Positions 4,470 through 6,593 of a stretch of 57,085 nucleotides of DNA are shown here, piece after piece; the stretch's first letter is position 1, and each line of letters opens with the position of its first letter. A program made the translations under genes and the position numbers. Origin of the DNA: an uncultured bacterium (lineage in GTDB: Bacteria > Patescibacteriota > Gracilibacteria > Absconditabacterales > Absconditicoccaceae). The notes below the pieces were generated by a model. It was not told the DNA's origin. It ran no database searches and saw only the letters and a list, made by a program, of their open reading frames with translations. Where the stretch lies: NCBI GenBank assembly GCA_946408385.1, contig CAMJSB010000008.1, positions 1 through 57,085 on the forward strand. The letters run 5' to 3'.

Positions 4470-4574
4470 TAAAAACCACAAAGAACATATAATAAAATAT
4501 TCTTTCAGATTTCTCTTGCATTCCATTTTAAAAATAATAAATTTTTTATTAGTTTATAATTTTGATTGGAAACT

Positions 4575-4625
4575 ATGAACAAGATAACAACGACTACAAC
4601 CACTACCACATGCCATATTTGGTAG
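4575..4625 (+). CDS. Threonine-rich leader peptide of thrS
   Basis: A 16-codon ORF reading M-N-K-I, then eight consecutive Thr codons (ACA ACG ACT ACA ACC ACT ACC ACA), then C-H-I-W and TAG. Its design is that of amino-acid attenuation leaders such as E. coli thrL. The TAG lies inside attenuator segment 2, so a ribosome that reaches the stop covers segment 2, whereas one stalled on the Thr codons covers only segment 1. A TATAAT-like -10 at 4555-4560 would put the transcript start only a few bases before the ATG. The peptide itself probably has no function beyond sensing charged tRNA-Thr. Confidence 0.85.
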   Translation: MNKITTTTTTTTCHIW

Positions 4626-4677
4626 GAGTTTTCTGTTGTTATAAATTCAAGAGCTCCTACCATTTGGTAGGTTTTTT
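4602..4677 (+). promoter_or_regulatory. Threonine attenuator of thrS (four mutually exclusive segments)
   Basis: Four complementary segments are visible: 1, ACTACCA (4602-4608, inside the Thr codons); 2, TGGTAGGAG (4620-4628, containing the leader stop); 3, CTCCTACCA (4654-4662); 4, GGTAGG (4666-4671) followed by six T. Pairing 3:4 gives an intrinsic terminator, 2:3 a 9-bp antiterminator, and 1:2 protects the terminator. Low charged tRNA-Thr should stall the ribosome on segment 1, free segment 2, and allow thrS transcription. The pairings are read directly from sequence; the regulatory behaviour is inferred from the known trp/thr/his attenuation model. Confidence 0.85.
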
Positions 4678-4697
4678 ATTAGATTACGATTATCAAG

Positions 4698-6593
4698 ATG
4701 TCAAATCATGAAGACACGCCTTTATTTAGACAACGTCACACACTAGCACACGTATTAGCAGAAGCTGTTCAGAGAGTTCAGCAACGAGATGTGGAAGTAG
4801 CAATCTGACCAGCAATTGATAATGGATTGTATTACGATTTCCTTTTTAGTGAAGAAAAACAAATCTGAGAAGATGACTTGAAAAAAGTTCAGGACCAGAT
4901 GGTAAAAATCATAAAAGAATGACAGGATATAATCCGCATCGACGTAAATGCTGAAGAATCAGATTTCCTTGTAAATAAATTGATGAAACAGAAATACAAA
5001 GATGAGATGAGAAGAGAATTTCTTGCTGATGGAGAATCTATTTCATTCTATGTAAATACCATCGCAGAAGCTGCTAAAGATAGAATTTTGGAATGAATTG
5101 ATGAAAACTACATCAAATATTATGAAGAAATAACTAAATTCTTACAAGAAAAGCATGCTGATAAATTCACAGGAAAATTTGCTACATTCCTAGATATGTG
5201 TGAATGACCTCACGTAGAAAATACCAAAGAAATCGATCCAAAAGCTTTCCAGATAGATAAATTAGCCTGAGCTTACTGGAGAGGAAACTCTAATAATGTA
5301 ATGATGACTAGAATTTATGTTTGGGCCTTCGAAGATAAAGAACATCTAAAAGCTTATGCTGAAGAAGTAGAAGAAGCAAAAAGAAGAGATCACAGAAAAT
5401 TATGAAAAGATTTATCAATTTTCATGTCTCATGACTTAGTTGGTAAAGGAATGCCTCTTTGGTTGCCAAATGGTGCAGTAATTAGAAAGCAACTTGAAAA
5501 CTATATCTACGAGAAAGAAAGAAATATGGGTTATATGCACGTATATACTCCATGCGTAGGAACAGTTGATTTGTACAAAACTTCATGACACTGGGATCAC
5601 TATCAAGAAAATATGTTCCCTTCAATGAAAGTAGATGAAGAAGAATTTGTACTTAGACCAATGAACTGTCCTCATCATATGTTAATTTATGCAAACGATT
5701 TAAGATCTTATAGAGATTTACCAATCAGAATTTGAGAATTTGCTACAGATTTCAGATATGAAGCAAGTGGAGTGGTTAAATGACTAGAAAGAGTAAGATG
5801 TATGTGTCAGAACGATGCCCATCTATTCGTTAGACCTGATCAAATCTGAGAAGAATTTAAGAAAGTGGTAACTTTGATTCTTGATGTGTATAAAGATTTC
5901 GGATTAACTAATTATAAATTCAGACTTTCATTAAGAGATCCTGCAGATAAAGAGAAATACTTCGATGATGATAATATGTGGAATGAAGCAGAAAATAAGC
6001 TCAGAGAAGTATTGAATGAGTTTGGATGTCCTTATACAGAAGCTATCTGAGAAGCTGCTTTCTATGGTCCTAAACTAGATGTAGAAGTTAAACCTGCAGT
6101 TGGTCCAGAAGTAACTTTGTCTACATGTCAGCTTGATTTCTTATTACCTAGAAGATTTAAACTAGAATATACTGATAAAGATGGAGAAAAGAAAACTCCA
6201 GTAGTAATTCATAGAGCAATATTCGGAACATTTGATAGATTTACTGCATTCTTATTAGAAGAAACTAAATGAGTATTCCCTTTCTGGTTAGCTCCTGAAC
6301 AAGTAAAAATCCTTCCAGTAGCAGATCCTTTCATTGACTATGCGAATAAAGTTTGTGAAGATCTGAGAAAAGAGAATATCAGAGTTTCAGTAGATACAAG
6401 TGCTGATAGTTTGAATAAAAAGATTAGAAATGCTGAACTTATGAAAGTGCCTTATATATTAATTGTATGAGAAAAAGAAGTAAATTCTGACTGAGTTTCA
6501 GTAAGAGTATTCAAGACTAAGGAACAATATGAACAAAGTGAAGCAGAATTCATAAAGGCTGCTGTTGAAAAAAGAGATAGTAGAGCGTTGTAA
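4698..6593 (+). CDS. thrS: Threonine--tRNA ligase, without TGS domain
   Basis: 631 residues. Charges tRNA-Thr in the cytoplasm. The protein begins directly at the editing domain (HTLAH at residues 14-18, matching the HxxxH zinc/editing motif; CEGPHV later), so the ~60-residue N-terminal TGS domain of typical ThrRS is missing. The class II core is intact: motif 2 region around [16 protein letters not shown], the zinc ligands Cys in MNCPHH and the later His residues, then [13 protein letters not shown] (motif 3). The C-terminal anticodon-binding domain starts near [10 protein letters not shown]. About fifteen glycines are TGA-encoded, including AIGPAIDNG and IGEFATDFR. The start at 4698 follows the attenuator by 20 bp; no earlier in-frame start adds a TGS domain. 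Confidence 0.96.

Follow-up and report, generated by a model that had tools for sequence, protein, structure and literature searches.

A probable ribosome-mediated transcription attenuator sensing charged tRNA-Thr upstream of thrS in a bacterium of the Absconditabacterales

A threonine-run leader and alternative hairpins precede thrS

The window analysed here (57,085 nucleotides) is contig 8 (CAMJSB010000008.1) of a 1.09-Mb genome of an uncultured bacterium of the order Absconditabacterales (class Gracilibacteria; GenBank assembly GCA_946408385.1), which reads TGA as glycine (code 25). On its forward strand, which carries all features described below, thrS (4698-6593) encodes a threonyl-tRNA synthetase (ThrRS) of 631 amino acids, with TGA as glycine (TIGR00418; PF00587, PF03129 and PF07973). 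Upstream of it, a 16-codon open reading frame (4575-4625) runs from ATG at 4575 to TAG at 4623-4625 and encodes the leader peptide MNKITTTTTTTTCHIW, and homologous leaders exist in a further 24 genomes of the order. Eight regulatory threonine codons in a row (4587-4610; ACA ACG ACT ACA ACC ACT ACC ACA), at which threonine is retained among the leaders and third positions vary, are followed by TGC CAT ATT TGG and the stop, so that the 16-codon frame with eight consecutive Thr codons described in the first-pass annotation matches the sequence base for base. A putative promoter (4516-4543), TTGCAT (4516-4521) and TAAATT (4538-4543) spaced by 16 nt, was inferred by alignment with TTGCAA-16-TATACT and TTGCTT-17-TATAAT of two relatives (L009 and L041, respectively); it remains tentative, as a consensus scan did not detect a promoter there.

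Four segments of the leader RNA can pair in mutually exclusive ways. Segment 1 (4584-4608) is made up of an outer arm (4584-4592) and an inner arm (4603-4608) pairing with 4634-4642 and 4620-4625, respectively. The outer stem, ATAACAAC(G) with (T)GTTGTTAT, has 8 bp and one G-U, its 3' arm at 4634-4642 reading TGTTGTTAT, and the inner stem joins CTACCA (4603-4608) to TGGTAG (4620-4625) by 6 bp. Segment 2 (4620-4632), with the core TGGTAGGAG (4620-4628), holds the leader stop codon and has either segment 1 or segment 3 as its partner. With segment 3 (4650-4662) it forms the antiterminator, in which TGGTAGGAG is paired with CTCCTACCA (4654-4662) over 9 bp exactly, or 13 bp including two G-U. Part of segment 3, CCTACC (4656-4661), also pairs with segment 4, GGTAGG (4666-4671), giving a hairpin of 6 bp with the 4-nt loop ATTT, followed by six T (4672-4677). 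This intrinsic terminator (4656-4677) lies 20 nt before the thrS start and is the only one detected in 321 bases (0.1 in shuffles). All three pairings (1:2, 2:3 and 3:4) had been proposed at first pass and were reproduced base for base, as were the location of the leader stop inside segment 2 (TAG 4623-4625 within 4620-4628) and the six T directly after the 3:4 hairpin; only the longer outer 1:2 stem had been missed.

Neither the codon run nor the folding resembles chance expectation. Among 897 ATG-initiated reading frames of 8-25 codons in the window, the longest Thr run was 0-1 in 877, 2 in 19 and 8 in a single one, the leader, which is thus the sole small frame with a run above 2, and apart from the leader, the complete 1.09-Mb genome has just one run of six Thr-like triplets. 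The whole leader folds into 1:2 (outer and inner stem) plus 3:4 at -27.7 kcal/mol, compared to -16.2 +/- 2.9 kcal/mol for shuffled leaders (z = -4.0; 0/200 as good). If folding starts at segment 2, the antiterminator 2:3 is the most stable structure (-18.6 kcal/mol, z -4.4); if it starts at 4634, the terminator is preferred, the 3:4 hairpin alone reaching -8.8 kcal/mol. The outer 1:2 stem is not equally strong in all leaders, as a single-sequence test gave p < 0.05 in only 9 of 24.

As thrS is under T-box control in many Firmicutes and the ThrRS encoded here is Firmicutes-like, a T-box or an amino-acid riboswitch, to which uncharged tRNA or threonine itself would bind directly, has to be considered. 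A T-box shares antitermination in response to tRNA charging with the leader described here, but it is a long structured RNA binding the tRNA directly, which is absent at this locus: the leader comprises only about 125 nt, nearly all of them taken up by the reading frame and the hairpins, and no T-box, riboswitch or known Thr leader was matched above the Rfam threshold in the window, nor any T-box or riboswitch at E <= 5 in the leader. We regard this possibility as virtually ruled out.

Conservation and covariation within the order

Of the 49 genomes of the order, most yielded thrS together with its upstream sequence. The leader, a type of element about 100 nt long, is associated with thrS in 25 of the 49, is absent in 20 and could not be judged in four; it is not universal at thrS, since 20 thrS genes of the order lack it. 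In 22 genomes it lies immediately 5' of thrS and in two (L001 and L040) a NUDIX-like gene is placed between both, the reading frame of which seems damaged in L040. The leader L069, also counted among the 25, is located at a contig end with a thrS fragment on a separate contig; it carries a palindromic repeat-like insert (GCCTACCTGTCGGTAGGCAGG) between segments 2 and 3 (L069:9-139). Changes within the Thr run fall on codon positions 1, 2 and 3 in 22, 24 and 70 cases, respectively, and the leader L006 is translatable only with TGA as glycine, as an in-frame TGA is found ahead of its Thr run.

Covariation was analysed in two alignments, an unfitted MAFFT alignment (A1) and a model-fitted one (A2), which is aligned to the structure and hence biased towards it. 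For 1:2 and 3:4 in A2, 12 of 14 pairs were changed on both sides (7.3 in shuffles), with 43 double-change cells versus 19.5 +/- 3.2 in shuffled alignments (0/500), far above slid versions. A1 gave 22 double-change cells versus 12.9 +/- 2.7 (0/500) for the same stems, and the count of doubly changed pairs was not significant in this alignment. Covariation of 2:3 within the order was not significant by column shuffling; this pairing covaries only weakly there and the shuffling is uninformative, as its segments barely vary. When each sequence was tested on its own, the 2:3 pairing was better than 95% of shuffles in 37 of 49 leaders from within and beyond the order. In addition, the 2:3 arms are wholly different between families with their complementarity kept, as in TGGTAGGAG with CTCCTACCA and AGTGTGGAG with CTCCACACT, and further family-specific pairs of arms are TTGCGGG with CCCGCAA and GTAGAGGTTT with AAACTTCTAC. 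The first-pass annotation had pointed to the Thr run of close relatives and to compensatory changes among orthologues as the features on which its reading would depend: the run is retained, and compensatory changes were found for 1:2 and 3:4, with 2:3 remaining weak within the order.

Several features of an attenuator are present, namely a Thr-codon reading frame, mutually exclusive pairings, a terminator with U-run, the geometry of the stop, evolutionary support and a Thr-linked downstream gene. Reading frame, codons, exclusive pairings, geometry, conservation and covariation are all seen or computed, the evolutionary support resting on covariation of 1:2 and 3:4 and, for 2:3, on complementarity across families only.

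The same comparison bears on feedback by the synthetase. The 'ribosomal' autoregulation mentioned at first pass is wrong for E. coli, where ThrRS regulates thrS by binding to the mRNA of its own gene. If the same applied here, the synthetase would bind a tRNA-like element of the leader and block expression, and the gene is indeed thrS, segment 2 holds GGU (a Thr anticodon) and UUUGGUAGG varies little within the order. This GGU, however, is situated in a stem instead of a 7-nt loop, no anticodon-like loop is conserved, and GGU is missing from other families in which the architecture is the same (AGAGGGATTT, AGTGTGGAG and GTTGCGGG). ThrRS binding would also leave unexplained the translated Thr run with its synonymous changes, the terminator and the leaders at other genes (see below), making it a very unlikely explanation. 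Both systems share a feedback on thrS, which in E. coli is translational and uses a protein-bound operator and here would be transcriptional and operated by the ribosome.

Leaders in other families and at other genes

A covariance model built on the leaders of the order was used to search 353 genomes of the class and gave low-scoring matches in 22 that do not belong to the order. A Thr-rich leader frame together with a terminator was found at 21 places of the class outside the order, in other families. As the model was trained on a single order, leader counts beyond it are lower bounds. Weak matches of the R1 model without a visible Thr frame (L071-L075 and L099-L101), one without a Thr run (L094) and one in which a Thr-rich protein tail precedes a terminator by chance (L084) were not accepted.

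Twelve of the 21 leaders precede thrS. Two precede a gene for aspartokinase/homoserine dehydrogenase (L083 and L097; G258 and G259), with threonine synthase (thrC) further downstream in L083, and the leader at this gene has Ile codons followed by seven Thr codons. The presence of aspartokinase/homoserine dehydrogenase in L083 and L097 falls within a class of mostly reduced biosynthesis. One leader (L080) is located before asd; in it, Thr codons alternate with Lys codons (MQINLTTKTKTAHLLRG), as though two end products were sensed together, threonine and lysine being products of the asd pathway. An isochorismatase-fold gene and a gene that could not be identified by Pfam follow one leader each. 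The remaining four precede the gene of a short helix-turn-helix (HTH) protein; at one of these loci, thrS follows three genes downstream. This orphan protein of approximately 100 amino acids (L086, L090, L096 and L098) has N-terminal Cys pairs like a zinc ribbon, followed by a transposase-like HTH; its gene occurs with Thr-run leader and terminator in three families, looks interrupted in L098, and possibly encodes a Thr-responsive DNA-binding protein. Outside the class, three more leaders were found in the wider phylum, L102 before thrS in another class, and L105 and L106 before other genes; in L105, from another part of the phylum, the Thr-run leader MNKIFLTTTTTTIFFSY is followed by a HAD/phosphoserine-phosphatase-like gene. 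Judged from the sequences, the match between codon content of the leader and function of the gene is strong evidence for a predicted amino-acid sensing. Within the genome of the window, no leader with cognate codons was found upstream of 11 other synthetase genes (valS, ileS, leuS, metS, serS, proS, glyS, tyrS, trpS, pheS and lysS), identified from protein sequence and family.

As any stall ahead of segment 2 would free this segment, the leader could also be imagined to sense general translation speed, e.g. under antibiotics or general starvation, instead of threonine. That is hardly credible, however, as only Thr codons are run-like and conserved, as the codons accompanying Thr vary with the pathway concerned (Ile for aspartokinase/homoserine dehydrogenase and Lys for asd), and as none of the 50 loci inspected, a subset of the matches in a search for runs of six His codons across 341 genomes of the class, had a convincing His leader. 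Similarly, the frame might be an upstream reading frame acting on translation (by reinitiation or mRNA stability) or a small gene for a Thr-rich protein with its own terminator, all pairings being incidental, since any small gene has a stop and may have a terminator, just as in the chance match L084. Incidental pairings do not explain the covariation of 1:2 and 3:4, a 2:3 pairing above shuffles in 37 of 49 leaders, the fixed spacing and the placement before Thr genes, and the thrS start, 72 nt past the leader stop, is too far away for simple reinitiation. Such an origin of the frame is very improbable.

Predicted switching by the position of the ribosome

The RNA downstream of a ribosome at each codon was folded in a simple equilibrium model, with the front edge of the ribosome assumed to be 11 nt past the first base of the A-site codon, a value based on general knowledge of ribosome footprints. 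For the leader of the window, the modelled probability of the terminator was 0.00 for a ribosome on any of the Thr codons, 1.00 for one on the stop codon and 0.97 without a ribosome, and rose to 0.87 in the stalled state when the segment-2 stretch was shuffled. Medians for the leaders of the order (n = 24) were 0.01 (stalled), 0.99 (stop), 0.99 (no ribosome) and 0.93 (stalled with segment 2 shuffled). A switch of more than 0.3 was obtained for 33 of the 49 leaders of the order and beyond; the remainder did not switch in this equilibrium model, among them L013, L020, L076, L077, L079, L080, L090, L095 and L106. In most leaders, the best 2:3 arm starts 7-15 nt past the first base of the last Thr codon (12 nt in the window). 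According to the model, a ribosome stalled on the last Thr codon would extend just up to the start of segment 2.

Apparent exchange of ThrRS beneath the leader

Outside the order, the closest relatives of the ThrRS found in the subgroup of the window are those of gut Bacilli (about 60% identity), and the enzymes of other members of this genus fall into two further clades. The clade splits were well supported in a tree of 24 rows, and AU tests rejected a single ThrRS clade for each of three genera (g1, p 1e-47; g12, p 2e-66; g20, p 2.5e-7). The DNA of the leaders is not divided in this way: L001 shares 92% of the leader and 48% of ThrRS with L028, and 95% and 61%, respectively, with L014, compared to 88% and 97% for L007 and L006. 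In all three genomes of genus g20 (L252, L253 and L254), the leader and three upstream genes are the same, and ThrRS and the downstream genes differ; one of these upstream genes appears RelA/SpoT-like by eye. ThrRS of different clades is also seen under a near-identical leader in L255 and L256 (g12) and the window (4575-6593), and no shared neighbourhood was seen for g1. The simplest reading of these comparisons would be a replacement of ThrRS, the product of an essential gene, in place under a conserved attenuator, with the reservation that hidden paralogues are not excluded and that the tree was derived from metagenome-assembled genomes.

Comparison with known systems

The thrL leader of E. 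coli thrABC (RF00506, Thr_leader) shares with the leader described here a Thr-run peptide, a stop near segment 2, antiterminator and terminator hairpins and a U-run. In contrast to thrL, the target is thrS and not threonine synthesis, the phylum is another one, TGA is read as glycine, and there is no common sequence apart from the Thr codons; the RF00506 model gave only 19.3 bits on the leader, below its gathering score of 55. The closest functional parallel to thrL in the class is the leader with Ile and Thr codons before aspartokinase/homoserine dehydrogenase (G258 and G259). No report of leader-peptide attenuation in CPR bacteria/Patescibacteria, or on thrS, was found in the open-access literature; Lopatovskaya 2010, cited in PMC4833913 and reportedly a comparison of attenuation among amino-acid and aminoacyl-tRNA operons, could contain thrS cases. 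Attenuators of synthetase genes, which share a peptide with cognate codons and alternative hairpins and differ in amino acid and phylum, have been described for trpS and leuS in Streptomyces and pheST in gamma-proteobacteria (PMC1262725), as well as for hisS/hisZ in Bacillus (PMC2965389). As of 2010, no leader-peptide systems were known beyond Proteobacteria, Actinobacteria and the Firmicutes case of that study (PMC2965389). The kind of regulation is thus known; the family, the lineage and, as far as it can be checked, the target thrS are apparently new, and attenuation in CPR bacteria is apparently undescribed.

Proposed mechanism and implications

From the retained Thr run, the covariation of 1:2 and 3:4 and the complementarity of 2:3 across families, the thrS leader is very probably a classical ribosome-mediated transcription attenuator sensing charged tRNA-Thr, and the first-pass reading of ribosome-stall attenuation acting on a synthetase of a CPR bacterium finds computational support. 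Like the promoter, stalling, termination in vivo and the response to threonine are inferred, in the absence of RNA or expression data. Transcription would start some 25 nt 5' of the leader, and the leading ribosome would translate its 16 codons close behind RNA polymerase. With plentiful Thr-tRNA, the ribosome would get to the TAG in segment 2 and mask this segment, leaving 3 to pair with 4 and transcription to stop at the U-run. If charged tRNA-Thr is scarce, it would stall within the eight Thr codons; with its leading side then extending no further than approximately the first nucleotide of segment 2, segment 1 would be occupied and 2 free, 2:3 would form and thrS be transcribed. Without a ribosome, 1:2 and with it the terminator would be expected to form (superattenuation).

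Homoserine dehydrogenase was not detected in any of the 49 genomes of the order and was detected in 14 control genomes, so that threonine is probably not made by the usual route and the switch would act on charging alone; presumably, these bacteria obtain threonine from their hosts. Charging of tRNA-Thr would be a concrete regulatory input for bacteria probably unable to make the amino acid.

As attenuation requires the first ribosome to keep up with RNA polymerase, conservation of the leader is indirect evidence for coupling of transcription and translation, which to our knowledge is still an open question outside a few model bacteria. This evidence concerns barely studied CPR cells, most of which can neither be grown nor manipulated. 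With the chances evenly balanced in our judgement, the Thr attenuator may be an old and persistent regulatory module, shared by much of the CPR, which outlasts the genes located under it, thrS genes of different clades, one of them Firmicutes-like, having been swapped in place and other Thr-related genes having been put under the same type of leader; this would imply tight transcription-translation coupling in these bacteria, including those reading TGA as glycine.
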